DNA from: a virus
Length of the DNA stretch: 21,245 nucleotides
Strand: one strand, 5' to 3'
IMG/VR virus record: IMGVR_UViG_3300025418_001603
Coordinates: 1 to 21,245 of that record
Made by a program: the position numbers and the translations under genes. Below are positions 3,478 to 20,365 of the stretch, piece by piece. The notes beneath the pieces are model-generated. The model ran no database searches. It saw only the letters and a program-made list of their open reading frames with translations, and was not told the DNA's origin. Position 1 is the first letter of the stretch, and each line of letters opens with the position of its first letter.

Positions 3478-3746
3478 TGTCTAAAGCATCACAAATAGCA
3501 AGATTTGCTACCAATCAAGGATATAATGCGGTACAGAGTAATGGCTCTTCAGTTACCGCCCGCAATACATTAAATATTGTAAATGCGGTAATTACAGATG
3601 ATTCTGTAAATTCCCGTACTAATGTTACAATTGGTGGTGTACAAGATAATTTAGACGGCGGTGTCGTAGATGGTATCGCTAACTATGATGGTGGAGATCC
3701 AACATCAGCAAGCTTTGTATATAATATCAATGGCGGAACGCCATGA
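3477..3746 (+). CDS. Short fibre-associated protein
   Basis: This 89-residue protein starts at the ATG overlapping the previous stop (TAATG at 3475-3479), with AGGTGG at 3468-3473 just upstream. The centre reads TARNTLNIVNAVITDDSVN then RTNVTI, a pattern seen in phage fibre proteins. The end is rich in Gly and Asp (DGGVVDGIANYDGGD) and finishes NINGGTP. It is too short to be a fibre alone and may be a shaft segment, tip or accessory. I do not know its function. Its tight coupling to the adhesin gene argues that both products are made together. Confidence 0.75.
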   Translation: MSKASQIARFATNQGYNAVQSNGSSVTARNTLNIVNAVITDDSVNSRTNVTIGGVQDNLDGGVVDGIANYDGGDPTSASFVYNINGGTP

Positions 3747-3771
3747 TAAATAAAACTGGGAGTGATGCATA

Positions 3772-4407
3772 ATGGCAGTCCAAACACAATTTCAATTCCG
3801 TAGAGGCACAGCAGCACTGTGGACATCTACAAATCCAACCCTTGCAGCGGGAGAATTGGGATATGAAACCGATACAGGTAATATCAAAATTGGAACAGGA
3901 TCAACAGCTTGGAACTCCCTTGGATATGGAACAATTACTGCAACAGGTGCAGTTACTCTTACAAATAAAACTTTAACTTCTCCAACTATTAACGGAGCAG
4001 CATTATCTGGAACTATTACAGGTTCCCCGACTTTTTCAGGAACTCCAACATTTTCGGCGGGAACTACATTAAACGCCCCAATTATTACTTATACTATTAA
4101 TGCACAAACAACTTCATATACACCAGTATTATCAGATGCAGCAGCAATTGTCACACTTAGCAATGCATCCGCAAATACATTTTCAATCCCGACAAACGGT
4201 GTAGTTGCTTATCCAATTGGTGCATCATTAACAATTATTCAAACTGGTGCGGGACAGACAACAATTCAAGCAGTAACTCCTGGCACTACTACTATTGCCT
4301 CTACTGGTGCAACATCAACAGCACCTAAATTGAGAGCACAATATTCTACTGCAACAGTTATTAAGGTTGCTACAGATACGTGGTATGTGGTAGGAGATAT
4401 TGTTTAA
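3772..4407 (+). CDS. Fibre protein with Mtd-like N-terminal motif
   Basis: This 211-residue protein begins with the motif FQFRRGTAALWTSTNPTLAA then GELGYETDTG and IKIGTGSTAWNSL (about residues 7-52). This is the head-proximal module found at the start of many phage fibres and resembles the N-terminal domain of the Bordetella phage major tropism determinant. The middle has beta-rich repeats (GTITGSPTFSGTPTFSAGTTLNAP). The C-terminal half (PVLSDAAAIVTLSNASANTF ... TWYVVGDIV) looks like a small beta fold seen at fibre ends. A GGGAG at 3758-3762 serves as ribosome binding site nine bases before the ATG. No reverse transcriptase or variable-repeat pair is in the window, so there is no sign of a diversity-generating retroelement. 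Confidence 0.85.
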   Translation: MAVQTQFQFRRGTAALWTSTNPTLAAGELGYETDTGNIKIGTGSTAWNSLGYGTITATGAVTLTNKTLTSPTINGAALSGTITGSPTFSGTPTFSAGTTLNAPIITYTINAQTTSYTPVLSDAAAIVTLSNASANTFSIPTNGVVAYPIGASLTIIQTGAGQTTIQAVTPGTTTIASTGATSTAPKLRAQYSTATVIKVATDTWYVVGDIV

Positions 4408-6077
4408 TGCCTATTATTGGAATTATAGATTCAGGTAAATCAGGACACTTAAATATTATTGCTGATATTTTAATTGTTGCTGGTGGTGGTAGTGGAAGCG
4501 GATTGGGCGCTGGTGGATCGGGCGGTGGCGGTGTAATTGCTTATTCTGCTCAAACGCTTCCTAAAAATACTAATTTGTACGCAACTGTTGGCGCTGGTGG
4601 CGCTGCAAATGGTTATCAAGGAAACAATTCATCTTTAACTAATTATGCAATAGCAGTAGGTGGTGGAATAGGTTCTTATGCAAACTCCACAGGTGGACGA
4701 GGCGGTTCAGGAGGCGGTGGGGGTGGAGGTTACGAAGCGACTGCTGGCGGTGGTGCAGGTACGGCTTTCCCTACTGGACAAGGTTATAACGGCGGTGCTG
4801 GACAAAATGGTAACGGAGCATTAGGTAAAACTAACGCTTCGGGTGGTGGCGGTGGCGCAGGTGGCGCAGGTGTAAATGGTGTTTATAATGGCGCTGCAGG
4901 AGCGGGTGGCATTGGAGCAACTTATAACACAGTAATTGGCGGAGTTAATGGACCTTATTCTTTTATTGACGCTATGGGTTCAGCAACCTCATCAGGAGAT
5001 TTACAAGGCGGACATTATTATTTTGCTGGCGGTGGCGGTGGCGGGCAAGGTGGTCAGGCATCTTCTAATGGTGCTGGCGGTTATGGCGGTGGCGGTGCTG
5101 GCGGTACAGGTAGCGTAAATGCCGTAAATGGCACAGCCAATACAGGTGGCGGTGGTGGCGGTGGTGGAAACTCTAGTGGCGGTGCTGGAACTGCTGGCGG
5201 TACAGGTGGTTCAGGTATTGTTATTGTTCGCTATCCAGGTGGACCAAGCGCTACGGGTGGCACAATTACTACAACGGGCGGATATACATATCACGCATTT
5301 AAATCTTCTGGAACATTAGCAATTGGTACTCCGCCATCAGCAAAAGCAACGGGCGGAATTATTGCTAATGATTCAACTTATATTTATCATACATTTATTA
5401 ACTCAGGTAGTTTTATTCCTAATCAAGCAATTACTGGTCAAGTTATTCAAGTTGCTGGCGGTGGTGGTGGTTCATCGTCAGGTGGAGGCGCTGGCGGTTT
5501 CCTTTATTTTTCTAGCGTTTCATTTGCATCAGGCACTACATATACAGCAACAGTAGGCGCTGGTGGACCTGGTCACTCTGCTCCAACAAACATAAATGGC
5601 GGAAATAGCACATTAACGGGTGGTTCATTATCATTAACAACTTCTTATGGTGGCGGATTTGGTTCGCAATATGAAGCAGGAGATAATGCTGGCTCGGGTG
5701 GTTCAGGTGGTGGCGGACGTCAAAGTTCTTCTGCTGGTACAGGTACAAGTGGACAGGGTAATAACGGCGGTTCGGGTACGTTTTCTTATGGCGGTGGCGG
5801 TGGCGGTGCTGGCGCTGCGGGCGGTGCTGGAACTACTACATACGGAAGTGGTGGAGATGGAACTTCGTCCTATTCCGCATGGGGATTAGCCACAGGAACA
5901 GGTGAACTATTAAACGGTACTTATTGGTATGCTGGAGGTGCTGCAGGTTATAACGGTCCCACTGGTGGAAAAGGTGGGGGTGGCGCATTAAACGCTGCTG
6001 GAATGCCAGCAACAGGTGGCGGTGGTTGTGCAAATAGTGGTGGTTCAGGTATTATTATTATTAGATATCCATTCTAA
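4407..6077 (+). CDS. Tandem double glycine-rich tail adhesin
   Basis: I place the start at 4407, not at the upstream in-frame ATG 4380. This gives a TAATG overlap with the previous stop, as at two other junctions here, and AGGAG at 4392-4396 lies ten bases ahead. The protein is then 556 residues. It has almost no N-terminal domain (MPIIGIIDSGKSGHL) before the first polyglycine domain, which closes with GGSGIVIVRYPGG near residue 265. Two HTF-type beta modules follow (GGYTYHAFKSSG, then STYIYHTFINSGSFIP). A second polyglycine domain ends the protein with GGSGIIIIRYPF. The lack of an obvious virion-attachment module suggests it caps another fibre protein, perhaps that of the preceding gene. Role in receptor binding is inferred from the family. 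Confidence 0.88.
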   Translation: MPIIGIIDSGKSGHLNIIADILIVAGGGSGSGLGAGGSGGGGVIAYSAQTLPKNTNLYATVGAGGAANGYQGNNSSLTNYAIAVGGGIGSYANSTGGRGGSGGGGGGGYEATAGGGAGTAFPTGQGYNGGAGQNGNGALGKTNASGGGGGAGGAGVNGVYNGAAGAGGIGATYNTVIGGVNGPYSFIDAMGSATSSGDLQGGHYYFAGGGGGGQGGQASSNGAGGYGGGGAGGTGSVNAVNGTANTGGGGGGGGNSSGGAGTAGGTGGSGIVIVRYPGGPSATGGTITTTGGYTYHAFKSSGTLAIGTPPSAKATGGIIANDSTYIYHTFINSGSFIPNQAITGQVIQVAGGGGGSSSGGGAGGFLYFSSVSFASGTTYTATVGAGGPGHSAPTNINGGNSTLTGGSLSLTTSYGGGFGSQYEAGDNAGSGGSGGGGRQSSSAGTGTSGQGNNGGSGTFSYGGGGGGAGAAGGAGTTTYGSGGDGTSSYSAWGLATGTGELLNGTYWYAGGAAGYNGPTGGKGGGGALNAAGMPATGGGGCANSGGSGIIIIRYPF

Positions 6078-6088
6078 GGAGAAGGCAA

Positions 6089-6268
6089 ATGACAGAAAAT
6101 AAAATTACAAAGGTTTATACCTATCAAGTAACAATGACCGTGCATCTTATTGCTGATAGTGATGAAATAGCCAAAAACCAACTTGACGACAAAGGCGGAA
6201 TAGTTACAAAAAGAGAAGTAGAATTATTAAACGCAGTACCGCTTTATGGAGAAATTGAGGAGAACTAA
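6089..6268 (+). CDS. Small protein of unknown function (59 aa)
   Basis: A perfect Shine-Dalgarno, AAGGAG at 6076-6081, overlaps the preceding stop codon and stands seven bases before this ATG. The product starts MTENKITKVYTYQVTMTVHL and contains a helical, charged segment (DSDEIAKNQLDDKGG) before KREVELLNAVPLYGEIEEN. It looks like a small alpha/beta protein with no signal, membrane or metal motif. Its own end encodes the GAGGAG that serves the next gene, so the two are translated in sequence. Function unknown. The strong ribosome binding site and conserved-looking composition make it a real gene despite its length. Confidence 0.75.
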   Translation: MTENKITKVYTYQVTMTVHLIADSDEIAKNQLDDKGGIVTKREVELLNAVPLYGEIEEN

Positions 6269-6270
6269 TT

Positions 6271-6618
6271 ATGGGACATTACGCAAAAGTAGAAAAAGGG
6301 ATTGTTACGCAAGTTATTGTTGCTGACGGACCCGATTGGTGTGAAAAAAATCTTGGCGGTGAGTGGATACAAACATCATATAACACTCACGGTGGAATTC
6401 ACTCAAATGGTAAATACCCAATCCACAAAAATTATGCGGGAATTGGATTTACTTTTGATGGCGTAGGATTTGCTGCGCCACAACCCTATAAGTCTTGGTC
6501 ATTAAATAAAGAAACTTATTTATGGGAAGCGCCAACACCAATGCCAACTGACGGCAAACAGTATTCTTGGAACGAAGATAAACAAGAATGGGTGGAGTTA
6601 GTCCCACCTACAGAATAG
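6271..6618 (+). CDS. Small Trp-rich phage protein, copy 2
   Basis: This 115-residue paralogue of the protein at 301 starts MGHYAKVEKGIVTQVIVADG. It shares the central TSYNTHGG...HKNYAGIGFTFD block and the Trp/Pro repeat (YKSWSLNKETYLWEAP, then YSWNEDKQEW). It is shorter than copy 1 because the stretch after IVADG is reduced. DNA identity is patchy, but a 17-base run including AATTATGCGGGAAT is shared with copy 1. The ribosome binding site GAGGAG (6257-6262) lies inside the upstream 59-residue gene, eight bases from the ATG. It follows the double glycine-rich adhesin, repeating the adhesin-then-Trp-rich order seen at the left edge. Function unknown, probably fibre associated. Confidence 0.85.
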   Translation: MGHYAKVEKGIVTQVIVADGPDWCEKNLGGEWIQTSYNTHGGIHSNGKYPIHKNYAGIGFTFDGVGFAAPQPYKSWSLNKETYLWEAPTPMPTDGKQYSWNEDKQEWVELVPPTE

Positions 6619-6625
6619 AGTTACT

Positions 6626-6805
6626 ATGACGGTAACTACTTATCGCTATTTATTTACCAATTTAGCGACCCAAGAAGTTATAGCCGAATTACCCTTAACG
6701 GGCGTAGGCTGCGGTGGTGGAAATGGTGGAGCTAACGGTTACGGCGGAAATGGTGGGTCTGGAATTCTTGTAATTAGATATACTCGCTCACAAGTAGGCG
6801 GTTGA
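6626..6805 (+). pseudogene. Chimeric remnant: minor-tail N-terminus joined to glycine-rich adhesin C-terminus (59 aa)
   Basis: This short open frame encodes two unrelated pieces. Residues 1-27 (MTVTTYRYLFTN, then EVIAELPLTGV) match the usual beginning of a phage minor tail protein, where a long beta-rich body normally follows. Residues 28-59 are a glycine-rich stub ending GGSGILVIRYTRSQVGG. That is almost the same C-terminus as the 652-residue adhesin at 1519 (GGSGIVIVRYTRAQVGG), although the DNA differs at many positions. The simplest reading is a large in-frame internal deletion, or a recombination join, in an adhesin gene. The frame remains open, so a mini-protein could still be made. It begins seven bases after copy 2 and has no clear Shine-Dalgarno. 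Confidence 0.65.
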
Positions 6806-6818
6806 TTTTAAAATGCAG

Positions 6819-6835
6819 TATAATAAGAATATAAA
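6819..6835 (+). promoter_or_regulatory. Candidate promoter for the HNH gene
   Basis: A perfect TATAAT lies at 6819-6824 in the 33-base gap before the HNH gene, with a second AT-rich hexamer TATAAA at 6830-6835. Initiation seven bases after the first box would leave a leader of about eight bases and no Shine-Dalgarno. No -35 box is clear. A separate promoter suits a free-standing mobile endonuclease gene. Confidence 0.4.
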
Positions 6836-6838
6836 GCT

Positions 6839-7327
6839 ATGAAATTTATCAAAGGTATTCCTGAATCTGAATATAAAAGAATTTGGCGGAACAACAACAG
6901 GGATAAAGTGCTTGCCAGCAAAAAACGTAGCTATGAAAAAAATAAGAATTCTATACTTAAAGCAAATTCTGAATATAGGCAAGAAAATCATGAGCGTAGG
7001 CTTGAAATAGAAAGAGCATCCAGAGACCGTAATATCCATAGGGTCAGGGCTTCTAAAATACTATCCCAAGCTAAGCGAAAAAAGCGAATTTCTGAGTGTA
7101 AAACTTATTATATATCAGACAAAGATTTATTAAGGTTATATACTGATCAGTGCTATAATTGTGGTAGCAGTAAAAATCAAAGCATAGATCACAGGATACC
7201 TATTTCAAGGAATGGTGATCATGGAATTGGAAATTTAATGACATTATGTAGAACATGCAATGCCAGTAAAAAAGATAGAACCATAATGGAATGGAAACTA
7301 TCAAAAATTAAAAAAGGAGATGATTAA
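6839..7327 (+). CDS. HNH homing-type endonuclease
   Basis: This 162-residue protein has a long, basic, helical N-terminal half rich in Asn, Lys, Arg and Glu (about residues 12-85) that probably contacts DNA. An HNH nuclease domain follows at about 100-155. The visible motif is C105-x2-C108, D117-H118, H128, N132 and C137-x2-C140. The two CxxC pairs should hold a structural zinc, and H118 is the likely general base. Such free-standing HNH genes are mobile in phages: they nick or cut alleles that lack them and spread by recombination. It has its own candidate promoter and sits inside the fibre cassette zone, next to a truncated adhesin. Its last eight bases overlap the next gene. Cleavage target unknown. 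Confidence 0.88.
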   Translation: MKFIKGIPESEYKRIWRNNNRDKVLASKKRSYEKNKNSILKANSEYRQENHERRLEIERASRDRNIHRVRASKILSQAKRKKRISECKTYYISDKDLLRLYTDQCYNCGSSKNQSIDHRIPISRNGDHGIGNLMTLCRTCNASKKDRTIMEWKLSKIKKGDD

Positions 7328-7709
7328 AATTTCACATTGGGCAGAAATTGATAATAATAACATTGTAACTCGTGTTCTTGTTGGTAATAATAATGATTCA
7401 GCAGGCGATGAAGGTTATAAGTGGTTGATTGACAACCTTGGAGGAACTTGGGTAAAGACCTCATATAATACAATTGGTGGTAAGCATACTTTGGGCGGGA
7501 CCCCGCTAAGAGGTAACTATGCAGGAATCGGTTATACATATGATAAAGATCTTGATGCATTTTATGCACCACAACCATTTCCTTCTTGGATTTTAAATAA
7601 GACTACATTTACTTGGGAAGCTCCCGTCGCATATCCAACAGACGGAAAGTTTTATACTTGGAATGAAGAGAATAAAGCTTGGGATGAGGTAGCAATAGAT
7701 GGCAAGTAA
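7320..7709 (+). CDS. Small Trp-rich phage protein, copy 3, with doubtful start
   Basis: This 129-residue copy reads MIKISHWAEIDNNNIVTRVL, then TSYNTIGGKHTLGG, NYAGIGYTYDKDLDAF, and the Trp/Pro repeat (FPSWILNKTTFTWEAP, then YTWNEENKAW). Alignment with the other copies places the family start (MAHYA, MGHYA) at ISHWA. An ATT codon at 7329 therefore stands where Met is expected. The ATG at 7320 directly abuts the AGGAG at 7315-7319, which is too close for normal initiation, while the ATT lies nine bases from it. Either ATT is used as a rare start, or ATG 7320 is reached by coupling to the overlapping HNH gene. The HNH insertion may have remodelled this 5' end. Coordinates give the ATG start. Confidence 0.82.
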   Translation: MIKISHWAEIDNNNIVTRVLVGNNNDSAGDEGYKWLIDNLGGTWVKTSYNTIGGKHTLGGTPLRGNYAGIGYTYDKDLDAFYAPQPFPSWILNKTTFTWEAPVAYPTDGKFYTWNEENKAWDEVAIDGK

Positions 7710-7866
7710 GCCAAATACAACAATTCCACAACCTTTTAAATCTTGGACTTTTGATGAAAATCTAGGATATTGGGTTGCACCAAAAGCAATTCCAGATGTA
7801 ACTCAACCTTATACATGGAATGATAAGACGGGAGAGTGGGATCTCATAGAATTTCCCGCCGAATAA
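7699..7866 (+). CDS. Half-copy of the Trp-rich protein (C-terminal module only, 55 aa)
   Basis: This ATG lies inside the end of copy 3 (11-base overlap). The 55-residue product contains only the Trp/Pro module: IPQPFKSWTFDENLGYWVAP, then PYTWNDKTGEWDLIEF. It aligns with PQPFPSWILNKTTFTWEAP and YTWNEENKAWDEV of copy 3 and lacks the MAHYA and NYAGIGYTYD parts. It looks like a partial tandem duplication that has kept an open frame and a start. An alternative is that the Trp/Pro module works as a unit by itself. No Shine-Dalgarno is obvious, so translation may depend on coupling. Confidence 0.65.
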   Translation: MASKPNTTIPQPFKSWTFDENLGYWVAPKAIPDVTQPYTWNDKTGEWDLIEFPAE

Positions 7867-7870
7867 TTAG

Positions 7871-8338
7871 ATGACAGCAGCCAGAACATTAGCTAGTTTG
7901 CTTAACGGAACTGCAACATTTACGGGAGAGGTAATTGTACCTACTCCCGTAAACTCACAAGATGCAGCCACAAAAGCATATGTAGATAATTCTTCTGGCT
8001 CTAATATTGGTTTGCTTGATGATTTGAGTACAAAGTTTGACGGGATTGAAAGTCGCTTTGCTCCAACATCAGGTGGTTATTCAGTTAATATAACAAATCC
8101 TTTTAGGCTTTTAATCACTGTTAATGGTATACTACAATCAGTATATACGCCAGATTATGTTTGGCAGTCTCCACTACCAAGGACGGGACTTCAAGTAGAC
8201 TCCAGTGGATATATAAGCTTTGCAGAAGTACCTCCAGCAGGATCTTCTTTCAACGGAAGAATAATGTTGGGGCCAACAACAAATACATCAAATACAAATT
8301 ATCCGTTTAAGGCAGCGGACATTTTACTAGGAGCGTAA
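7871..8338 (+). CDS. Fibre or baseplate-associated virion protein
   Basis: This 155-residue protein opens with ATFTGEVIVPTPVNSQDAAT followed by KAYVDN (about residues 15-40), a motif very common in phage tail fibres where a repeated shaft meets a coiled linker. The remainder (LLDDLSTKFDGIESRFAP, NPFRLLITVNGILQ, then a final AADILLGA) is a beta-rich segment also seen in aquatic phage structural proteins. A virion role is likely, the exact place unknown. It starts four bases after the half-copy stop with no clear Shine-Dalgarno. Its end carries AGGAG (8329-8333), which serves the next gene. A strong hairpin lies in its first 30 codons. Confidence 0.75.
   Translation: MTAARTLASLLNGTATFTGEVIVPTPVNSQDAATKAYVDNSSGSNIGLLDDLSTKFDGIESRFAPTSGGYSVNITNPFRLLITVNGILQSVYTPDYVWQSPLPRTGLQVDSSGYISFAEVPPAGSSFNGRIMLGPTTNTSNTNYPFKAADILLGA
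7919..7953 (+). other. Strong intragenic hairpin
   Basis: The left arm TTTACGGGAGAGGTA (7919-7933) pairs with TACCT (7938-7942) and CTCCCGTAAA (7944-7953). This forms 15 perfect base pairs with one bulged A (7943) and a four-base loop, ATTG. It lies about 50 bases inside the gene at 7871 and encodes part of TFTGEVIVPTPVN. No T-tract follows, so it is not a standard terminator. It could act as an RNase processing site, a pause, or a brake on translation. It may instead reflect codon choice alone. Confidence 0.6.
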
Positions 8339-8341
8339 TAA

Positions 8342-11300
8342 ATGGCAAGAAAAATCATGCTGGATACCCAGTACACATTCACACCATCAACAGGTGTAGT
8401 AGTTTTATCACAGAGATATGTACCACAAGAGCGTTTGCTACTTATTACAAACGTCACAAAGAATAAAGTCATTTATAACTTCTCCGACCCTTCCCTAGGA
8501 GCAACTTCATATGTAACATCAATGAACGGTGCCGCTGGAACAACAACAATTACTCTTGCCTATAATACTTCTACAATGTCTTCAACTGATAAGCTTCAGG
8601 TAACAATTGATGAATATTCAGAAGCAATTCACCCAGATGAAACATCAACTGACCCAGTTGGAAAGATGCGTGTATCCACGCCATCCAACCTTATTGATAC
8701 AGACTTTGAATATGGTACACAGGTTTCTAAGTGGGAAAACCTAACCATGATTAATAACCGTCCACTCGCATATCAGACAGTTCCAAACGTTGCAAACTTG
8801 CAGTCAATGTACCTAGGAACTGGTACACGTAACGTAGTTGTAAATTTTAACGCAACACACTATCTTGCAGCAGCAGCAGCAATTACAGTTCAAGATACAT
8901 ATCTTTCAGTTGCAAACGGTAACTATGTAATTGACTCAACTTCAACTAATACAGGTACTTCAACATCTCCAGTTTGTGCACCAATTACAGGTTCAATTAC
9001 TGCAATTTCAAGCACAGGAACTGCAATTACTTATTCAACATCATCAACGACGGGACTTGTAGTAGGTCAAACCGTAACAATTACAGGTGCATCATCTGCA
9101 GGATATAACCTAACAAACGCAGTTATTACATCAATTGTTTCAAATACCAGCTTTACTGTTGCTTCAACAGCTACTGGATCAACATCAACTGCATCATTCT
9201 CAGCATCTGCTTGGATTTCATATACAGCACGTTCAGCAAACTCTACAACAATTACACAGCTTTTGGATGCTAACAAAACAGCAATTTACTCTGCTAACTT
9301 TTATTCAGGTGTAGCAATTGGTACAGCTCCAACAATTACATATTCAGGAAGTGCTGTAACTGTAACAACTTCAATCAACCATGGTCTTGCGATTGGTAAT
9401 GAAGTTGCAATTACTGGTGTTACAACAAATGGTACAAATGCTCCAAACGGTTCATTTGTAGTTGCAACCGTTACATCACCTACATCATTTGTAGTATATG
9501 TACCTAATACTCCTACTGGAACACTTACATCTACCTCTGCAAACGTATATGTTCGCCCACAAGGACAATTCCTACACCGCCCATTTGACGGTGGAGTTAT
9601 TTTTTCAACAAATGGTTCATCTAACTTTGAACAATCAGTTCGTCAAACTCGTCGTTATTTCCGTTACCAATCAGGTAAGGGATTGCAAATGTCAACAGGT
9701 ACAATTATCAAGCCTAATTTGCTTGTAGATCAAATCACTTCATCTGGAACGCTTGTAACTGTTCAAACAAAAGAACAACATAATTTGCAGGTAGGTGCAA
9801 CCGTAACAATTTATGGTGCAAATGAAACTGCATATAATGGAACATTTACTGTTGCAAACGTGACTGGATATAATACATTTACATATACAGCAAATACAGT
9901 ACCTTCAGCATCACCAGCATCTGGAACATATTTTGTTCAAGTAGTTGGATGGTATGGTGCAAAGAACCGTATGGGAATTTTTGATCAACAAAACGGAATG
10001 TTTTTTGAGTTTGATGGACAAACTCTATGGGCAGTTCGCCGTAACTCCGTATTCCAAATTGGTGGAAAAGTTTCTGCTACAAATGGATCAAATACAGTTA
10101 CTCAAACAAACTCATCATTCCCTACAACATTTTCTAAGCAGTTAACTCCAGGAGATTATATCGTTCTTCGTGGAGCTTCATATCGTGTAACAGATATTCT
10201 TTCTGATACAACTCTTCAAATTTCCCCTGCATATCGTGGAACAACTGATAACTATATTGTTGCGTCTAAGACAATTGAAACTCGTATTCCACAATCTCAG
10301 TTTAATCTTGATAAGCTTGATGGAACTGGTCCTTCAGGATTCAATATTGATCTATCAAGAATGCAAATGTGGTTTATTGACTATGCTTGGTACGGTGCAG
10401 GTGTAGTTCGCTGGGGTGTTCGTGGTACTGATGGTAAAATTATTTACTGCCATTCATTACCAAATAACAACACTAATTCAGAAGCTTTCTTGCGTTCTGG
10501 TAACTTGGCAGGACGTTATGAAACTTCAACAATTCCAATGTCTACAGTATTAACAGCATCAGCTGCTGCATCAGATACTACAATTAACGTAGCATCAACA
10601 ACGGGATTTCCATCATCAGGAACACTGTTGATTCGCAATCAGTCAGCTTACGAATATGTAAACTATACGGGTACAACATCAACAACATTTACTGGACTTA
10701 CTCGTGGACAAGCAGGTAACTCATCACTTGCTCTGACAATTTCAGCTGGTTCTAACCAAGCTTCAGTATCATCTGCAGCGGGACTTCAAGTAGGACAAAG
10801 AGTTATTGCTCCGTTATCATTCCCAGATAACACATTTATTGCAGCAATTAATGGTACAGTTCTTACACTTTCACAAGGTGCATTAACTTCTAATCCAACA
10901 GTAATTGTTCCACCAATGGGTGCATCTTCTGGACAATCATTTACTTATAGTGCAACTAACCCAGTTGCAATAGAGTTTGCATATCCAACATTTGCTCCGA
11001 CTATCTCACACTGGGGTACTGCAGCAATTATGGATGGCGGATTTACCGCTGATAAGTCCCTCTTGTTTACATACGGACAGCAGACTCCAGTATCAATTCC
11101 AACAGCTTCTATTGTATTCTCAGGTTCTGCAAGCGGATCTGCAGCATCAAATACAATTACTTTGTCTGGAACTGGTACACAAACAACGGCAAATATTCTT
11201 ACAGGAATGTCAGTTTCAGGAACTAATATTGCAGCGGGAACATATGTAACTTCTGTTGTTAACTCAACAAACTTTACAATTACTCCAAACCCAACAGGTA

Positions 11301-12142
11301 CAATTACCAGCGGTTCTTTAACCTTAACTGGAAATAATACAAGAGCTTTGATGTCAATCCGTCTATCTCCTGCAGTAGATAATGGTATCGGAGCGGGATT
11401 TGGTCAAAGAGATCTTCTAAACCGTGCCCAGTTGATTCTTTCAACACTTGATGTATCTCTTTTGAATACTAACACGGGTAACATTCTTGTAAGAGGATAT
11501 ATCAATGCATCACCATTTGGTGGTTCTCAAACAATTTATGGAGCTGCAACAGGTGTTCCAATTTACCTATCAACAGCTTCTGGCTCAGGAACAGTTCAAA
11601 CTTATACAACTACAACCCCTCATGGATTAAATATTGGAGACCAAGTTGTTGTATCTGGTGTAACTTCTTCAATTGGATATAATGGAACTTATACGATTAC
11701 ATCTGTTCCATCATCAACAACATTTGCAGTGGCAGGTACTTATTCCACAGCATATAGCACAACAGGCTCTCCATCACTTCTTGCATATAAGCAATGGACA
11801 AATGCTGTAGGTAACGTTTATGGCTCACTTACATCTTCCCTTGCACAAATTGCAGACTTTGCTCCAAATGCCACAAATGGTGGTTCGGCAGGTGCTTATG
11901 GGGTAACTGGCGGTGAAGTAACTGGTGGTTTCTTTGCTAACCAGACTACAGAGCTTGATCTTTCTAACCTCCGTGACCTTGGTAACTCAATCCTTGGTGG
12001 TGGAGGACTTGGAACTCCAGCATATGCAGGACAAAATGGATATCCTGACGGGCCAGATGTACTTACAATTGTTGTAACAAATCTTGCATCTACTCCAGCA
12101 CAGGTTATCGGAAGACTTGCTTGGACTGAAGCTCAGGCTTAA
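8342..12142 (+). CDS. Large virion structural protein with inserted beta-modules
   Basis: This 1266-residue protein has a conserved scaffold that I recognise from large structural proteins of aquatic phages. Landmarks are FDGGVIFSTN and RQTRRYFRYQSGKG (about residues 418-445), RIPQSQFNLDKLDGTGPSGF (about 655), MQMWFIDYAWYGAGVVRWG (about 678), and the end PDGPDVLTIVVTN ... RLAWTEAQA. Into this scaffold are set similar beta-modules of about 60-70 residues with the pattern H-G-L-x-I/V-G-xx-V-x-I-x-G ... NGTFTV. They lie near residues 216-291, 331-400, 465-532 and 1077-1146, with looser relatives near 800-853 and 925-1000. They may decorate the virion surface. AGGAG at 8329-8333 stands eight bases before the ATG. 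The exact virion location (baseplate, fibre or wedge) cannot be read from the sequence. Confidence 0.85.
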   Translation: MARKIMLDTQYTFTPSTGVVVLSQRYVPQERLLLITNVTKNKVIYNFSDPSLGATSYVTSMNGAAGTTTITLAYNTSTMSSTDKLQVTIDEYSEAIHPDETSTDPVGKMRVSTPSNLIDTDFEYGTQVSKWENLTMINNRPLAYQTVPNVANLQSMYLGTGTRNVVVNFNATHYLAAAAAITVQDTYLSVANGNYVIDSTSTNTGTSTSPVCAPITGSITAISSTGTAITYSTSSTTGLVVGQTVTITGASSAGYNLTNAVITSIVSNTSFTVASTATGSTSTASFSASAWISYTARSANSTTITQLLDANKTAIYSANFYSGVAIGTAPTITYSGSAVTVTTSINHGLAIGNEVAITGVTTNGTNAPNGSFVVATVTSPTSFVVYVPNTPTGTLTSTSANVYVRPQGQFLHRPFDGGVIFSTNGSSNFEQSVRQTRRYFRYQSGKGLQMSTGTIIKPNLLVDQITSSGTLVTVQTKEQHNLQVGATVTIYGANETAYNGTFTVANVTGYNTFTYTANTVPSASPASGTYFVQVVGWYGAKNRMGIFDQQNGMFFEFDGQTLWAVRRNSVFQIGGKVSATNGSNTVTQTNSSFPTTFSKQLTPGDYIVLRGASYRVTDILSDTTLQISPAYRGTTDNYIVASKTIETRIPQSQFNLDKLDGTGPSGFNIDLSRMQMWFIDYAWYGAGVVRWGVRGTDGKIIYCHSLPNNNTNSEAFLRSGNLAGRYETSTIPMSTVLTASAAASDTTINVASTTGFPSSGTLLIRNQSAYEYVNYTGTTSTTFTGLTRGQAGNSSLALTISAGSNQASVSSAAGLQVGQRVIAPLSFPDNTFIAAINGTVLTLSQGALTSNPTVIVPPMGASSGQSFTYSATNPVAIEFAYPTFAPTISHWGTAAIMDGGFTADKSLLFTYGQQTPVSIPTASIVFSGSASGSAASNTITLSGTGTQTTANILTGMSVSGTNIAAGTYVTSVVNSTNFTITPNPTGTITSGSLTLTGNNTRALMSIRLSPAVDNGIGAGFGQRDLLNRAQLILSTLDVSLLNTNTGNILVRGYINASPFGGSQTIYGAATGVPIYLSTASGSGTVQTYTTTTPHGLNIGDQVVVSGVTSSIGYNGTYTITSVPSSTTFAVAGTYSTAYSTTGSPSLLAYKQWTNAVGNVYGSLTSSLAQIADFAPNATNGGSAGAYGVTGGEVTGGFFANQTTELDLSNLRDLGNSILGGGGLGTPAYAGQNGYPDGPDVLTIVVTNLASTPAQVIGRLAWTEAQA

Positions 12143-12163
12143 AGAGAGGGCGGTGGCAATAAT

Positions 12164-14449
12164 ATGCCTTTAGATAAACCAAAAAACGTAGCCAACGACT
12201 CTCTAAAAACTCCGTATGTTACGGTTAATAATAATATAACCCCACTGGGAACAAGCACATTTACTCAGTTATCTGGAACTCAGACAAATCGCCCAACATC
12301 TCCAGCAATTGGAACATTTTATTATGATACTACAACTGGACAAACAGAAGTTTATACGGCAAATGGTTGGGTAAATCCAGCAACTGCCCCAAATGCCCCT
12401 ACAAACGTTACTGCAGCAAATCAGGCTATTGCATATGGCGGAACACCAGCAGCATATGTTTATTTTACTCCAGCAACTACGGGAAATCCTGCAACTACAT
12501 ATACTGTAAATTCTAATACAGGTGGTTTTACTGCTACAGGAACTTCAAGCCCTATTTCAATTACAGGACTTTCTGCAGGAACTTCTTATACATTTACAGT
12601 TACAGCAACAAATGCTTATGGTTCTGCAGTATCTTCTGCTAGTGGCTCTTTAACAGCAGCAACTGTTCCGCAAACTCCTACTATAGGAACAGCAACTGTT
12701 TCTGCAAATAGTGCTTCGGTAACATTTACCCCAGGTAATAATGGTGGTGCTTCAGCTACAACATATACCGTTTATGCTTCGGGAGGGTATGGTATATTCG
12801 CTACTGGTACATCATCTCCAATAACAGTTTCTGGTTTGACTGCGGGACAATCTTATACATTTACTGTAACAGCAAGTAACTCTGCAGGAACTTCCAGTGC
12901 TTCATCACCTTCAAATTCAATAACAGCATTACAGCCTTTTACTGTTGACTACTTACTTGTTGGTGGCGGTGGAGGCGGCGGAACAACAGATTCTTCTCGT
13001 CCATTTGCAAACCCAGCCTCTTGGTCAGGTGGGGGCGGAGCTGGAGGATATGTTAGTGGTTCAGCAAACCTAAATAATTTGTCAGTTTATGCTATTACTA
13101 TTGGCAACGGCTCCTCACCTGGTGGATCAGGAGGAAATTCTACATTTAACGGACTAACCGCACTCGGAGGAGGTTACGGAGGAAACTCTAATTCCTCAGT
13201 TGTTCAAAACGGTGTAGCTGGTGGTTCAGGCGGCGGTGGTGGTGGAGACGTCCCTGGTCTAGTTTATCCAAATTCTGGAATAGGTGGAGCTTCTACGCAA
13301 TCATCTACTTATGGTTATGGCTATGGAAATGCTGGAGGAAATGGTTACGATCCATCACCAGAACGTCCTGGTGGTGGCGGTGGTGCAGGAGCAGCAGGAG
13401 CAGCAGGACCTGTTTCATCTGGAGGAAATGGATTACAATGGCTTGATGGAAATTACTACGCAGGCGGTGGTGGAGGAAATGCTGGAACAGCAGCTACTAC
13501 TACAAATACAGGTGGCCTTGGCGGTGGCGGAAATGGATCAACATTAGCATACTTATCTGGTTCTAACGCCACAAATGCTACAGCTAATACAGGCGGCGGC
13601 GGAGCTGGTGGTACTTCTGGAGGCTCTGGCATATGTATTATTAGATATCCAGGATCATCATCAAAAGCTACTGGAGGAGCCATCACCACAAACGGCGGAT
13701 ATGTATATCATACCTTTACTGGAAATGGAAGCTTTATTCCTAATGGAGCAAACCCACTAGCAAGTGTTACTTCGGCAACACTTACAAATTGGTATGATTT
13801 TTCTAATTCTAGTTTTATGACCCTTAATGGCTCTAATATTTCAACTGTTATAGATTTGAGCGGAAACAATAGAAACTTAACTGCTGTTGGAACCGTCCCT
13901 CTAGCCTCAAATCAAATAAACAGCTTAAGCGTTGCCAGCATAAACTCGGGTAGCTACTTGTCTATTGCTAATCCAATAACATATACTAGTACTAACATAC
14001 ACTGGTTTGTTGTTGTACAGCCTAAGTCCTCAGCACCTAGCCACGATAATGGTTTAATTGGTGGTACAGGAGACCCAGGAATCCTTGCATACACTCTTCC
14101 AGGTTCTTCAGGAAATGGTTTTACTCAGAGCTTGCTAAACACAAGTCGTTATTGGTTTGCTACTCCAGGCTCATTTGGTGGATATTCAACAAGTCGTGCA
14201 TATCAAATTAACGCCTCGTATGTTCTTTCTTCTGGTGCTTATGTGTATCGCCAGTCTAGAACTGCAGACGGCTCAGGTACACAAGCTTTAGGTTCTGGAT
14301 ATTCCAGCCCAACAAATGCTATTGGTTATCAAGAAAGTGGTTATCCTGGAGTATCGTATATTGGTGAAGTTATTATGTTTAATGGCCCACTTAACTCAAC
14401 AGATTTAGCAACCGTTGAAAACTATTTATACTCTAAATGGGGAGTATAA
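12164..14449 (+). CDS. Tail adhesin: two FN3, glycine-rich domain, lectin-like C-terminus
   Basis: This 761-residue protein is a second full-length modular adhesin. Residues 1-72 include a short anchor and the fibre motif GTFYYDTTTGQTEVYTANGW. FN3-like domains follow at about 75-165 and 168-256, both with SYTFTVTA. A polyglycine domain runs from about 260 to the closing GGSGICIIRYPG near residue 490. An HTF module (GGYVYHTFTGNGSFIP) leads into a C-terminal domain of about 225 residues. That domain has the pattern W-Y-D-F ... VIDLSGNNRNLT ... YIGEVIMFNGPLNSTDL ... YLYSKWGV, typical of concanavalin A/LamG-like lectin folds. The other glycine-rich genes here lack this lectin-like end, so it may recognise a different glycan. 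Shine-Dalgarno is weak (CGGTGG seven bases before the ATG). Confidence 0.88.
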   Translation: MPLDKPKNVANDSLKTPYVTVNNNITPLGTSTFTQLSGTQTNRPTSPAIGTFYYDTTTGQTEVYTANGWVNPATAPNAPTNVTAANQAIAYGGTPAAYVYFTPATTGNPATTYTVNSNTGGFTATGTSSPISITGLSAGTSYTFTVTATNAYGSAVSSASGSLTAATVPQTPTIGTATVSANSASVTFTPGNNGGASATTYTVYASGGYGIFATGTSSPITVSGLTAGQSYTFTVTASNSAGTSSASSPSNSITALQPFTVDYLLVGGGGGGGTTDSSRPFANPASWSGGGGAGGYVSGSANLNNLSVYAITIGNGSSPGGSGGNSTFNGLTALGGGYGGNSNSSVVQNGVAGGSGGGGGGDVPGLVYPNSGIGGASTQSSTYGYGYGNAGGNGYDPSPERPGGGGGAGAAGAAGPVSSGGNGLQWLDGNYYAGGGGGNAGTAATTTNTGGLGGGGNGSTLAYLSGSNATNATANTGGGGAGGTSGGSGICIIRYPGSSSKATGGAITTNGGYVYHTFTGNGSFIPNGANPLASVTSATLTNWYDFSNSSFMTLNGSNISTVIDLSGNNRNLTAVGTVPLASNQINSLSVASINSGSYLSIANPITYTSTNIHWFVVVQPKSSAPSHDNGLIGGTGDPGILAYTLPGSSGNGFTQSLLNTSRYWFATPGSFGGYSTSRAYQINASYVLSSGAYVYRQSRTADGSGTQALGSGYSSPTNAIGYQESGYPGVSYIGEVIMFNGPLNSTDLATVENYLYSKWGV

Positions 14450-14521
14450 AATATATAATAAATATGAAAAATTACACTCAAAGTTTTATCAGTATAATCT
14501 TTAAAAATTATTTAATTAAAG

Positions 14522-14536
14522 TATAATAGTATTATG
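14522..14536 (+). promoter_or_regulatory. Probable leaderless promoter for the 863-residue gene
   Basis: A perfect TATAAT at 14522-14527 ends six bases before the ATG at 14534, so the expected first transcribed base is the A of the start codon. No Shine-Dalgarno precedes the gene. This is the layout of leaderless actinobacterial transcripts. Another TATAAT is at 14493-14498. The 84-base gap holds nothing else convincing. Confidence 0.55.
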
Positions 14537-17125
14537 TCATACAAACAAGTAGTACTTAGAGATAACCCTTTAGCATTTTGGCCATTAAATGGCACATCAT
14601 TGCTAAGAACCTATGCCACTATTTTGCTTGAATATAGAACATATCAAGACTGGATATCTGCAGAACCTACTTATGGATCTACTTCTCCAACATTTACCTT
14701 GCAAGATATATCTACAAATGGAAATCATGGAGCTTATACAATTGGTCAGCCAAACTTTCTTGACATCCTGCCCCTAGCAACTCTTTCTAGTTATGACACC
14801 CAATTGGCGGGATGTAAAATAAATGGCACATCAGAGGTTGGTATAACCAACCTAGCTCAGCTATATGACATGTTTTATACTGGAACTGAAAACTTAACAT
14901 TTGGTATGGAGATATGGTTGGCTTTTGATTCAAACCCGCCACTTAATAACACACTTCTTTCAGTAACATATCTAAACGACACTATTTCTCAAGTATATAT
15001 AAATAACGATAGAGTTTATTTTACTATTAATGGTAAAGATAAAAAAACAGGTGCAGCACTTTCATATACTGCATATAAACAAGTACAGTCATGGGAATCA
15101 CAATGTCACTTATTTGTTTATTATTCCAAAGGCACTATTAATGTAGTTGTTAATGGTATATCTGGAAACTCTGCAACAGCATCGTCAAACTTCATCTGGT
15201 CTCATGATACATATGCTGCACCAGACTTTTTCTATAAAGTAGGGCCATCGTCAGGTTCAAATAGTTTTGTTGTTAATGATTTAGCATTTTATGATTATAC
15301 ATTATCTCAAAATCAAATTAGATCCCATATGGTTTGGGGAACATATGACTCATCCCCACAAAGTTATGTAAAACAAACAAGCGGATATTTTTTTGACATT
15401 AAAGAAAACGATGCAATGTATGCTTATAAAAAAGATTTTTCAGATCCCAAAAATTATAGCCAAGGCGTATTAACTAATTTAATTACTGATAATAATGGAT
15501 TGACACTTAAAACAATCCCGTCCCTAACCAAGACAGGTACCTCTGGAGCAATAACAACTTCAAATGGATTATCTGTAACAAATACAGCTTCAGCAAAGTT
15601 TTCAAATATATCTTCATACTTTGATATAAACTCAATGTCTATAATGGGTCAGATTAACTGGCAAAGCAACACAACTGGAAATCCAGCAGTTATATTTGCT
15701 GTTGAAGGATTTAATAATGGTGAATGGTTGTATCTTGCACAAGATACATCAAATAAACTAACATTGTATTATCATTCAATATCTCCTAATTATCCATATA
15801 CAGTTACAGAAAATGTTGTTGCACAACTACCTGCTCAAAATACGGCGGGAACTTATAATTTTGGAGTAGCAATAAATAGCACTACAGTAAAGATATATAT
15901 GTCAAATACAGGCTCATCTAATGGATCTTTACCTTCATATACATATGCTAACTTGAATCTGTACTTTGGAAACCAATATTCATCTGCAACCACCAGCCCA
16001 ATGGTTGGAAGCATTTTTTACATGTCTCTTTTGCCAAAATATGTTGATCCATCAACTTATACAAATTATGGAGCTTACGATAGCACCACAATATCCTTTA
16101 TTAATAACACGGCGGTATCTCAAATAGGAACATGGACGCTAAGTGTACCTTCTTCACAATTTGCCAAGATATTTGGAGCCAGAATGACCTGGGATACAGG
16201 TTCTTATTATGATTCAACAGTTAGCACAAATCAAAGCGTAAATGTTCAATTATCACAAGATTATGGCAAGACATGGACTAATGTTCTTAATGGTTATCCA
16301 GCATTAAAGTATCCAGATAGTGCTACAGCATATACAGATACGATTTTTAAAACAACTATATTTACAGCTGACTCATCTTCACAGTATTTGCCAAGAATGG
16401 ATAATGCACTAGTTGTGTTTTATAATGATTTGTCAATTATCTCAGATGCAGGTGCCTTCGTGTTAGCTCCAAGACAAGGAAGCTATACAGGCGATACATA
16501 TTCAATTGAAAAAAATTTCTTTAACATCCTAGCTAGATCTTCAAACTTTGGGATTAAAATTGCAGAAGTAAATAATGCAAACTCTGTTGCTACAATTACT
16601 CCAGCAGCAATTGCCACGGGATATCAAACAATAGAATTCTGGTTTAGGTGGGATCAGCTTACAGCAACTCAAGTACAGATTATTTTGGATACCATAGGTA
16701 TTAGAGCGTCTTTGTACTTTGATTCAACAGGGGCAATTTATCAAACAGGTTTTGGTAATGTATATGTAAATGGTTTATCATTAACATCAGGCAAAACCAT
16801 GACCCAAGGTGAGTCCTACCACTTTGTGTGCGTTTATCCATACTCAATTAATACTCAAATCTACTTGGGCGGAGATCAAAGACTACAGAACTTCTCCAAT
16901 GGCACATTTGGATATGTAAGCATTTATCCACAAGCATTTGCCCAGTCAGATGCCCAAACAAGATACCTGGAATTCCTTTCTAGCAATGTTTCTCAAGTTG
17001 ATTATTCAACACTTTTGTCAGGAGCATCAAACATAATTGGCACATTGTCAGAATATTCAGGCGGTAGTACAGCATTTAATGCTGGACAACCAATTTTGGC
17101 ATACCCACATCCCGTAAATGGTTAA
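14534..17125 (+). CDS. Large LamG-like virion protein with an Asp-box
   Basis: This 863-residue protein begins YKQVVLRDNPLAFWPLNG, a usual opening of phage proteins with concanavalin A/LamG-like jellyroll domains. The first such domain spans about 1-265, with LQDISTNGNHGAY, then LTFGMEIWLAF, and a closing VNDLAFYDYTLSQNQI. Two further jellyroll-like regions lie near 320-500 and 670-820 (TIEFWFRW; GYVSIYPQAF). Between them, residues 574-581 read SQDYGKTW, a perfect Asp-box (S-x-D-x-G-x-T-W) as found in sialidases and other beta-propellers, though here only one copy is seen. The protein probably forms part of a tail fibre or baseplate that touches host glycans. No catalytic set is apparent. It appears to start its own transcription unit. 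Confidence 0.85.
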   Translation: MSYKQVVLRDNPLAFWPLNGTSLLRTYATILLEYRTYQDWISAEPTYGSTSPTFTLQDISTNGNHGAYTIGQPNFLDILPLATLSSYDTQLAGCKINGTSEVGITNLAQLYDMFYTGTENLTFGMEIWLAFDSNPPLNNTLLSVTYLNDTISQVYINNDRVYFTINGKDKKTGAALSYTAYKQVQSWESQCHLFVYYSKGTINVVVNGISGNSATASSNFIWSHDTYAAPDFFYKVGPSSGSNSFVVNDLAFYDYTLSQNQIRSHMVWGTYDSSPQSYVKQTSGYFFDIKENDAMYAYKKDFSDPKNYSQGVLTNLITDNNGLTLKTIPSLTKTGTSGAITTSNGLSVTNTASAKFSNISSYFDINSMSIMGQINWQSNTTGNPAVIFAVEGFNNGEWLYLAQDTSNKLTLYYHSISPNYPYTVTENVVAQLPAQNTAGTYNFGVAINSTTVKIYMSNTGSSNGSLPSYTYANLNLYFGNQYSSATTSPMVGSIFYMSLLPKYVDPSTYTNYGAYDSTTISFINNTAVSQIGTWTLSVPSSQFAKIFGARMTWDTGSYYDSTVSTNQSVNVQLSQDYGKTWTNVLNGYPALKYPDSATAYTDTIFKTTIFTADSSSQYLPRMDNALVVFYNDLSIISDAGAFVLAPRQGSYTGDTYSIEKNFFNILARSSNFGIKIAEVNNANSVATITPAAIATGYQTIEFWFRWDQLTATQVQIILDTIGIRASLYFDSTGAIYQTGFGNVYVNGLSLTSGKTMTQGESYHFVCVYPYSINTQIYLGGDQRLQNFSNGTFGYVSIYPQAFAQSDAQTRYLEFLSSNVSQVDYSTLLSGASNIIGTLSEYSGGSTAFNAGQPILAYPHPVNG

Positions 17126-17139
17126 TTAACCTGTATTTT

Positions 17140-17162
17140 TGGTAGTCATATGTACCATTTTT
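17140..17162 (+). terminator. Weak terminator-like hairpin
   Basis: TGGTA (17140-17144) and TACCA (17153-17157) form a 5-bp stem around an 8-base loop, followed at once by five T bases (17158-17162). It lies 15 bases after the stop of the 863-residue gene and just before a candidate promoter. The stem is short, so termination may be partial. Confidence 0.35.
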
Positions 17163-17172
17163 AACAGTTACG

Positions 17173-17190
17173 TGGTATTATGGGCATATG
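17173..17190 (+). promoter_or_regulatory. Probable extended -10, leaderless promoter of the portal operon
   Basis: TGGTATTAT (17173-17181) is an extended -10 element. The hexamer TATTAT ends six bases before the ATG at 17188, the same spacing as at 14522. No Shine-Dalgarno is present, so transcription probably starts on the A of the start codon. Together with the hairpin just upstream it marks a transcription-unit boundary. Confidence 0.55.
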
Positions 17191-17526
17191 GGTAAAATGA
17201 AGATTACTCCCGTTGATGAAGTTAACTGGGGATTATATATTTGGCAGATGCCAGACGGCAAAATTGTCATGGATGAAGAAGGTGCTTATCTAAGTATCCC
17301 GTCCATGAAAGGCGATATCCGTCAGATAAAGAAGCTTAAAGATGTTGCAAAGCACTACGGGCTAGAAGATGGAAAGCCATTGTTTATGGCTGGACATAGA
17401 CCAGTTACAGATGAAGAACTTGAAATGCAAAGACAAAGATTAGAATTGGGCCTTGTGCCAGATGAATATGATACTCCAGCTATGATGGATTATGTTAAAG
17501 AAATGAGGGACATGAAACTTGGCTAA
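17188..17526 (+). CDS. Small conserved protein encoded upstream of the portal
   Basis: This 112-residue protein reads VDEVNWGLYIWQMPDGKIVM then EGAYLSIPSMKGDIRQIKKL and ends with a charged helical stretch (TDEELEMQRQRLELGLVPDE). I recall similar short genes just before portal genes in actinobacterial phages, but no function that I can state. The helical, acidic and basic mix suggests a small assembly factor or virion accessory; this is inference. It has no Shine-Dalgarno and probably sits at the start of a leaderless message. It overlaps the portal gene by eight bases and carries the portal's ribosome binding site. Confidence 0.75.
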   Translation: MGKMKITPVDEVNWGLYIWQMPDGKIVMDEEGAYLSIPSMKGDIRQIKKLKDVAKHYGLEDGKPLFMAGHRPVTDEELEMQRQRLELGLVPDEYDTPAMMDYVKEMRDMKLG

Positions 17527-19099
17527 TTTAAGAATTGATGACACGATTGATGAAGATGAGGGCGGGATCACAGTAAAACTTGATGCCCCATCACATACAG
17601 TAGAACACGATTTTGGTGACCCATTTAACGCATCATGGGATGAAATTAAGAAAGCAGATGGTCTAAGCCCTAACTTTCGTCGTCAAGTAAATAGAATTCA
17701 AAAGTCATTTACTGGCGTTGGTGATGCAAAGTCCAAAAAACTTGATCCGCTTGATCTGACTGGATATTCGTTATTTCAGATTGTTCAACCTCCATACAAC
17801 ATTCTTTACTTGGCACAGCTTTATGATATCTCCCCATATCATCACTCTGCTGTAAATGCTAAAGCTGCCAACGTAGTTGGCCTTGGTTATAAGTTTGAGA
17901 ACACATGGGATACAACTTCAAAAATTGAATTGGCTATGGATAATCCAAAGAAGCTTGATAAGCTACGTTCAAAGATTGAAGGTTTAAAAGAAGAGCTTCG
18001 CAGCTTCCTAGAATCCCTTAACTCAGATGATTCATTTACAGAAACAATGAAAAAGATATTCGTTGACCTAGAGTCTACTGGAAATGCTTACATGGAAGTT
18101 GGTCGCACATCAACAGGTAAGATTGGTTATATTGGACATATTCCTACAACTACAATGCGTATCCGTCGTCACCGTGACGGCTTTGTACAAGTTGTTTATA
18201 ACCGTTATACATTTTTTAGAAACTTCGGTGATACCGAGACCCCAGATCAGATAGGTACTGATCCCCAGCCAAACGAAGTAATTCACTTTAAAGTATTTAC
18301 TCCGTCAAATACCTACTATGGTGTACCTGACGTTTTGTCAGCAAAGAATGCAGTTGCAGGTGATGAATTTGCACAACGCTTCAACCTAGACTACTTTGAG
18401 AATAAGGCTGTTCCACGCTATATCATTACAGTAAAGGGTGCAAAGCTTACTGCTGATTCAGAGCGTAAATTGCTTGAGTTCTTCCAAACTGGACTCAAAG
18501 GTAGAAACCACAGAACTCTTTATATTCCACTTCCATCAGATGGTGAGCAAGGTCGTGTTGAATTTAACATGGAGCCAATTGAAGCGGGAATCCAAGATTC
18601 TTCATTTAGAAACTATGCTGTAGAAAATAGAGATCGTATTCTTCTTTCACACCGTGTTCCTGTATCAAAGCTTGGAATGCCAGCAAATGTATCTTTGGCA
18701 AATGCTAAAGATGCAGACAAGACATTTAAAGAGCAGGTATGTCGTCCACGTCAAGAAGAACTTGAATTTAAGATTAACTTAATTATCAAAGAATTTACTG
18801 ATGCATTCGTTCTTCGTTTTAATGAACTTGCACTTACAGATGAAGAGACTCAATCAAGAATTGATGATCGTTATCTCAAGGATCAAGTTATTACTCCTAA
18901 CGAAGTTCGTGCACGTCGTGGAATGGCTCCACTTGAAGGTGGTGATGCAGTGTTGGTTATTAACCCTAAAGCACAAACAGATGCAAAGTCCGACTTTAGT
19001 GGAAATAAAACACGTGATCAAAACAGAACCTTGAACGCTCCAGATAAAATGGGAACTGGTCGTAATGCAAAAGGCGACGGGCCACAAGAAGGTAATTAA
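17519..19099 (+). CDS. Portal protein (PBSX/SPP1-like portal family)
   Basis: This 526-residue protein forms the dodecameric ring at the capsid vertex through which DNA enters and leaves. Family marks include LFQIVQPPYNILYLAQLYDI (about residue 83), NAKAANVVGLGYKF, the core VIHFKVFTPSNTYYGVPDVL (about 254-273), and the late helical part LGMPANVSLANAKDADKTFK. The C-terminal tail is polar and probably disordered. The start codon is TTG at 17519, giving MANLRIDD. GAGGG at 17505-17509 stands nine bases upstream, and the nearby ATG at 17512 is in the previous gene's frame. The length suits portals of this group. The downstream XkdF-type protease agrees with a PBSX-like head module. Confidence 0.92.
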   Translation: MANLRIDDTIDEDEGGITVKLDAPSHTVEHDFGDPFNASWDEIKKADGLSPNFRRQVNRIQKSFTGVGDAKSKKLDPLDLTGYSLFQIVQPPYNILYLAQLYDISPYHHSAVNAKAANVVGLGYKFENTWDTTSKIELAMDNPKKLDKLRSKIEGLKEELRSFLESLNSDDSFTETMKKIFVDLESTGNAYMEVGRTSTGKIGYIGHIPTTTMRIRRHRDGFVQVVYNRYTFFRNFGDTETPDQIGTDPQPNEVIHFKVFTPSNTYYGVPDVLSAKNAVAGDEFAQRFNLDYFENKAVPRYIITVKGAKLTADSERKLLEFFQTGLKGRNHRTLYIPLPSDGEQGRVEFNMEPIEAGIQDSSFRNYAVENRDRILLSHRVPVSKLGMPANVSLANAKDADKTFKEQVCRPRQEELEFKINLIIKEFTDAFVLRFNELALTDEETQSRIDDRYLKDQVITPNEVRARRGMAPLEGGDAVLVINPKAQTDAKSDFSGNKTRDQNRTLNAPDKMGTGRNAKGDGPQEGN

Positions 19100-19102
19100 A
19101 AA

Positions 19103-19972: not shown

Positions 19973-20310
19973 GCCTAAAACATCATTTTAAGTTCAATAT
20001 TCTTGATGCCAAAACCCTAGGAATTGCATTAACAAGTTCTTTTTCAACATGGGCAGCTACTGGATTTCAACATGACATATCCCACTTAGCTTATGTAGGG
20101 GTAGGATTTATAACAGGTGGGTTAGTTTCACACAATTCAATGGCAAACCCTAATGTCACCCCAGATTCTCATATAGTAACGCCATACGTGTCTAATATTG
20201 AAGACCACAACTCAGCAGCACCAGAACCATCAAACGCAGGGTTAGAATACAAACCAGAAGGGGCGGATGTCAAAAAAGTCATCCAAATCAATAGCGGCAT
20301 TATAAAATAA
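19969..20310 (+). CDS. Putative holin or lysis-associated membrane protein
   Basis: This 113-residue protein starts with an ATGA overlap on the endolysin stop, so the two are probably coupled. Near the N-terminus are two moderately hydrophobic stretches, TLGIALTSSFSTWAATGF (about 16-33) and LAYVGVGFITGGLVS (about 40-54), short enough to be a hairpin of membrane helices. The rest is polar and acidic, ending in a small basic region. Size, position after a lysin and this topology suit a holin, which would open the membrane for the endolysin. The helices are weakly hydrophobic because of many Thr and Ser, so the call stays tentative. An anti-holin or other membrane protein is possible. Confidence 0.5.
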   Translation: MSLKHHFKFNILDAKTLGIALTSSFSTWAATGFQHDISHLAYVGVGFITGGLVSHNSMANPNVTPDSHIVTPYVSNIEDHNSAAPEPSNAGLEYKPEGADVKKVIQINSGIIK

Positions 20311-20343
20311 TTTCTACCAAAATTATGCTTTATTTATAAATAT

Positions 20344-20365
20344 TGCTATTATTTATTTACATATG
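20344..20365 (+). promoter_or_regulatory. Candidate extended -10 promoter for the protease gene
   Basis: TGCTATTAT (20344-20352) is an extended -10 element ten bases before the ATG at 20363. A start seven bases downstream would leave a leader of about four bases. No Shine-Dalgarno is present. TATAAATA at 20335-20342 is also present but is hard to interpret in such AT-rich DNA. Confidence 0.4.

Follow-up and report, generated by a model that had tools for sequence, protein, structure and literature searches.

The locus considered here raises the question of how a frame of only 59 codons, running from an ATG to a TGA on the forward strand (MTVTTYRYLFTNLATQEVIAELPLTGVGCGGGNGGANGYGGNGGSGILVIRYTRSQVGG), came to begin like the gene of a tail protein and to end like that of a glycine-rich adhesin. 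It lies in a virus window of the IMG/VR type, the window being the whole stretch of 21,245 bases that was analysed. A sequence-only reading had described the frame as the N-terminus of a minor tail protein joined to the end of a glycine-rich adhesin, and this composition was found at 6626-6805 just as described, residues 1 to 27 corresponding to the start of a hub gene and residues 28 to 59 to the end of a Gly_rich_2 adhesin. By sequence comparison, both halves match homologues beyond chance. The explanation that we favour, with a probability of roughly 0.83, is that the mini-ORF is a junction scar left by the exchange of adhesin cassettes, possibly with the involvement of an HNH endonuclease. 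The features concerned are collected in Table 1.

Table 1. Positions in the window of the mini-ORF, its two parts and the surrounding exchanged block
Feature	Position	Strand	Remark
Left exchange point, in the terminal part of conserved gene 3772-4407	4400..4411	+	Identity to L164 (99.7%) ends at 4410
Putatively imported cassette with the gene order of hub-carrying contigs	4411..6705	+	Absent from sister L164/L083
Cassette member: Gly-rich adhesin	4407-6077	+	
Cassette member: small gene	6089-6268	+	
Cassette member: phrog_7759 gene	6271-6618	+	
Chimeric 59-aa mini-ORF (probable recombination scar)	6626..6805	+	Sole frame with both ends
5' part: beginning of a phrog_1885 gene for a tail hub / minor tail protein (~27 codons)	6626..6705	+	
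Probable recombination junction, GGCGTA / GGCTGCGG	6705..6706	+	DNA similarity to intact hub genes breaks off
3' part: end of a Gly_rich_2-type adhesin gene (~32 codons, terminating in RYTRSQVGG)	6706..6805	+	
Free-standing HNH endonuclease gene, right edge of the cassette	6839..7327	+	PF01844, E 2.5e-10
Right boundary of the exchanged block, where resident gene 7320-7709 (phrog_7759) starts	7313..7320	+	

For the 5' part, IMG/VR was scanned with the mini-protein, and 112 related stretches were obtained (best E 2e-10), 80 of which were analysed as hub loci. The aligned part covers residues 1 to 28 in most of the matches and extends to residue 31 or 41-42 in some, and in each of the 80 loci the matched stretch begins a longer frame. 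This frame comprises about 366-382 aa and at full length ends like VYRIVGLSVQPGEDGPERVTLTLT, apart from four frames that reach contig ends and one, in L010, that stops at 194 aa. The latter, at 5971-6552 of an otherwise hub-type contig, probably reflects a frameshift or a sequencing error. None of the 75 complete genes from the 80 loci kept has a glycine-rich tail. The intact protein matches the phrog_1885 'minor tail protein' family (E 6e-57), whose N-terminal signature YRYL..AELPLTGV is present in the mini-ORF. Comparison of its AlphaFold model, built from 29 relatives (mean pLDDT 80), with the PDB returned central baseplate hub proteins and VgrG spikes with E down to 4e-17, among them Mu gp44 (1wru), the prophage hubs 3cdd and 3d37, 80alpha (6v8i) and T4 gp27 (1wth). 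On this modelling, the intact hub protein of ~370 residues is predicted to adopt a gp27/VgrG-type fold, of which the first strands alone are left in the mini-ORF, and a tblastn search found no remainder of the hub gene elsewhere in the window. Isolate relatives of the hub are mostly Streptomyces phages, e.g., OnionKnight and Raleigh, at 30-34% identity.

In the lineage to which the window belongs by its portal protein, the hub gene was found in none of 17 records, which are fragmentary, some being up to 108 kb in length. Nor was it found in the related contigs L164, L163 and L165, the same search detecting it in 7 of 7 control records that carry it. That the portal lineage is devoid of the hub gene is supported, although not proven, by these sequence searches.

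The 3' part has a glycine-rich stretch and closes with the GGSG-hydrophobic-RY motif, as Gly_rich_2 adhesins do, and residues 26-57 of the mini-ORF weakly match the Gly-rich family phrog_2295 (E 0.0036), which also takes in the three intact adhesins of the window (genes 1519, 4407 and 12164; Gly_rich_2, PF21722, E 4e-11 to 6e-17). The claim that the frame ends nearly as gene 1519 does holds for the protein, there being four differences in the final 17 residues, but not for the DNA, since identity over the final 57 nt is only 65%; a recent copy of gene 1519 is therefore ruled out as the origin of the 3' part. Its closest DNA match is an adhesin end in L142/L143 (86% over 51 nt), two contigs that belong to the same portal lineage as the window. 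The ending RYTRxQVGG occurs in four portal-lineage loci and in five loci that were retrieved with gene 7320; the 80 hub loci and those retrieved with gene 6271 all lack it. Among the 7320-type loci, its position is directly 5' of the 7320-like gene; because these loci, some of them near-duplicates, were chosen for that very gene, the adjacency does not constitute independent evidence. The only repeat near the junction is a 14-nt glycine-codon repeat at 6716/6743, which lies within the 3' part.

The two parts, each with separate and identifiable homologues, join at a single base. Window positions 6096-6705, spanning the hub gene start, are 73.7% identical over 612 nt to the hub-carrying contigs L247/L061, and positions 6240-6705 are 79.9% identical to L243; these alignments end inside the mini-gene, right after GGCGTA. 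Among the 220 distinct Gly-tail frames and 78 hub frames (YRYLF) fetched, that of the window is the only one to have both a hub start and a Gly tail. Among complete Gly-tail ORFs, moreover, it alone is short (59 aa), the first percentile of length for Gly-tail ORFs being 259 aa (202 ORFs) and the 95-aa ORF of L012 starting at a contig edge. The exact 26-base junction had no match in IMG/VR, a search from which the window's own record may have been left out, and no relatives of the mini-ORF were confirmed in a collection of bacterial and archaeal genomes. The relatives checked thus uphold the view that the frame is a remnant and not a conserved small gene (1 of 220 Gly-tail frames has the hub start). 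The proposal that it records the collapse of one adhesin gene fared differently: an intact gene bearing both ends was looked for among the relatives and not found, and the mini-gene is therefore not the product of an internal collapse of a single adhesin gene.

The extent of the exchange is evident from a sister contig, IMGVR_UViG_3300021139_000213 (L164/L083), which matches the window at 3657-4410 (99.7%), 7313-12894 (96% overall) and 14511-21245 (99.3%). In bins of 300 bases, identity across 7313-12894 lies for the most part between 0.96 and 1.00, falls to 0.94-0.95 in a few of them and drops past 12300. In place of 4411-7312, the sister carries two other Gly-rich adhesins and a gene of 85 aa, and a second sister, L163, has the same 85-aa gene ahead of gene 7320; identity to both sisters resumes at 7313. 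This 85-aa gene (MADKLTRLEVCLGECEPKCGKC..., L164 4101-4358, L163 996-1253) occupies the place of the HNH gene in the window. Directly after the left exchange point, the donor-type start ATGCCTATTATTGGAATT opens the block, and the order adhesin, gene 6089, gene 6271 and full hub gene is common to many hub-carrying contigs, in which the closest homologues of gene 6271 (62-84% identity) have the full hub gene next to them. Hence two observations that characterise a cassette-exchange scar were made, i.e., homologues meeting at one base and a near-identical genome with a different block. No close donor of 4411-6705 was found in the collections, similarity being only 74-80%, and neither GC nor GC3 gave a useful separation of donor and recipient segments. 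The last adhesin of the sister ends otherwise (..RYLM) and is followed by the 85-aa gene; therefore, the 3' remnant would derive from another resident or an intermediate adhesin, and the block would have at least three origins.

The portal of the window lineage is ~54-55% identical to the portals of Streptomyces phages of 126-134 kb, e.g., Wakanda and Karimac, and the window belongs to a large lineage of actinophage-like viruses with block-wise replacement at the adhesin locus. A second block unlike the sister contigs (L083, L126, L085) is found at 12500-14510, where it covers most of adhesin gene 12164-14449, and represents another region of exchange within the adhesin locus. Small phrog_7759-like genes occur three times in this one locus (301-684, 6271-6618 and 7320-7709), each after an adhesin block.

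According to the exchange hypothesis, a block from a different type of phage, comprising an adhesin, a small gene, a phrog_7759 gene and about 27 hub codons, would have taken the place of the adhesin block resident there. On the left, the joint would lie at the conserved gene end near 4400-4410, and on the right in glycine codons at 6705/6706, where the hub start would have been joined, in the same reading frame, to the final ~32 codons of a different Gly-rich adhesin, the frame staying open across the joint by a one-in-three chance. The HNH endonuclease, whose gene separates the adhesin remnant from the resident gene that comes next, may have made the double-strand break by which the exchange began, as in intronless homing.

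DNA similarity to L165 runs from 6839 on into gene 7320. Only two relatives of the HNH gene were found, one in L321/L165 (L321 6001-6486) and one in L322 (5890-6438), the latter with a different N-terminal region and a very similar C-terminal half. All three HNH genes, including that of the window, are located immediately 5' of a phrog_7759-like gene, and both relatives, like the window's gene, stand where an adhesin block ends. In both sisters the same site is without HNH gene, so that a nuclease gene at a recurrent site (three occurrences) and an empty allele, the hallmarks of an intronless homing element, are both present. The presence of the HNH gene goes along with an altered start of gene 7320, which reads MIKISHWAE in the window (compared at 7313-7345) and MAHWAE in the sisters (L163 1254-1300, L164 4359-4405), and the new start codon falls within the end of the HNH frame. 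By analogy with homing systems, the HNH gene suggests that its enzyme may have helped the exchange of the block. It is a considerably more speculative notion, which we hold to be rather doubtful, that an HNH enzyme sited at the boundary might drive the swapping of whole host-recognition cassettes between actinophage lineages that are unrelated, with the 59-codon frame as its fossil. The titles and abstracts of the literature contained nothing that directly links homing endonucleases to glycine-rich adhesins.

The same final sequence as by one-step illegitimate recombination could also have been reached in two steps, namely by the import of a whole hub gene with downstream sequence and a consecutive deletion from hub codon 27 to the tail of a downstream adhesin. 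Such a two-step origin is a variant of the exchange and comes closest to the deletion proposed from the sequence alone, and deletions between runs of glycine codons would presumably be easy. However, no intermediate was seen, in the hub-carrying contigs small genes follow the hub towards the lysin, as in L243, and the matches to the window's adhesins lie upstream of the hub gene in these contigs; we therefore consider this route unlikely, if still the most plausible of the alternatives. The principal doubt that is left concerns an assembly or library chimera, in which an artificial joint at 6705/6706, and perhaps a second at 4410, connects the reads of two phages in the sample, so that no virion has the fusion. 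In its favour, the fusion is known from a single record, the locus is strain-variable, and misassembly is usual at repeats of glycine codons. Yet two false joints would be needed, since the flanks in the sister enclose another block at the same place, the letters shared at 6705 look like a few bases, which is less than an assembler overlap, and an HNH gene directly followed by a 7320-type gene was seen independently in L165/L321. Because of the clean block limits with respect to the sister and the too few shared letters at 6705, a chimera is given low weight and appears improbable.

By far the least probable explanation is that the frame encodes a functional micro-protein in which a hub start and a glycine-rich tail serve to cap fibres or to compete with them, as had also been proposed. 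The frame is still open, and as its start lies 7 nt past the stop of gene 6271-6618 it could be translated by coupling. However, only the weak ribosome-binding-like sequence AGAG, judged by eye, precedes the ATG, and the frame is unique among all fetched relatives. Its 32 adhesin residues are a small share of the ~226 positions of the Gly_rich_2 profile, a Pfam scan of the mini-ORF matched no family, and AlphaFold, run on the single sequence, predicted a lone hairpin (residues 4-26) with low confidence elsewhere, including the tail (mean pLDDT 62.9). These observations speak against the capping or competing protein. A scan for promoters and terminators gave little above background. In the hub-derived codons, pN/pS is ~0.24 as compared to 0.16 among the donors, a value based on 23 codons with near-saturated synonymous sites, and this seemingly constrained state fits recency and function alike. 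Accepting the junction scar as the best explanation, the product of the mini-gene would be non-functional or only incidentally translated.

As a gene, the mini-ORF is thus of no importance in itself. As a junction, it offers a base-resolution view of a recent acquisition of an adhesin block, with flanks that over most of their length are ~99% identical to a genome without that block. If the HNH enzyme promotes such swaps, host recognition in freshwater actinophages would be changed by an enzyme whose role can be tested.

Amongst known systems, the free-standing homing endonucleases SegF and SegG of phage T4 carry the sequence around them into relatives during co-infection (PMC2988022), and for lactococcal phages it was suggested that HNH homing drives exchange (PMC12724721). 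As in the intronless homing and marker exclusion of SegF and SegG, a free-standing HNH gene lies beside the replaced block in the window, its two relatives occupy the same kind of site, and a near-identical genome is without it. In contrast to intronless homing, the exchange proposed here would involve unlike adhesin blocks and not alleles, and cleavage and co-transfer by the HNH enzyme are putative. Compared with central tail hubs (T4 gp27, Mu gp44, 80alpha, and phrog_1885 proteins such as that of Raleigh), the mini-ORF has the first strands and is without all later strands and domains. With the Gly_rich_2 adhesins (PF21722) it shares the glycine-rich stretch and the characteristic ending in its last 32 residues, whereas the remainder of the domain, and with it any match to the Pfam model, is missing. 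Seams with fused gene fragments are ordinary in phage evolution. Like the gene-fragment scars of mosaic phages, the fragment described here sits where similarity switches from one phage type to another; it differs from them in that the fusion, as it happens, preserves an open reading frame.
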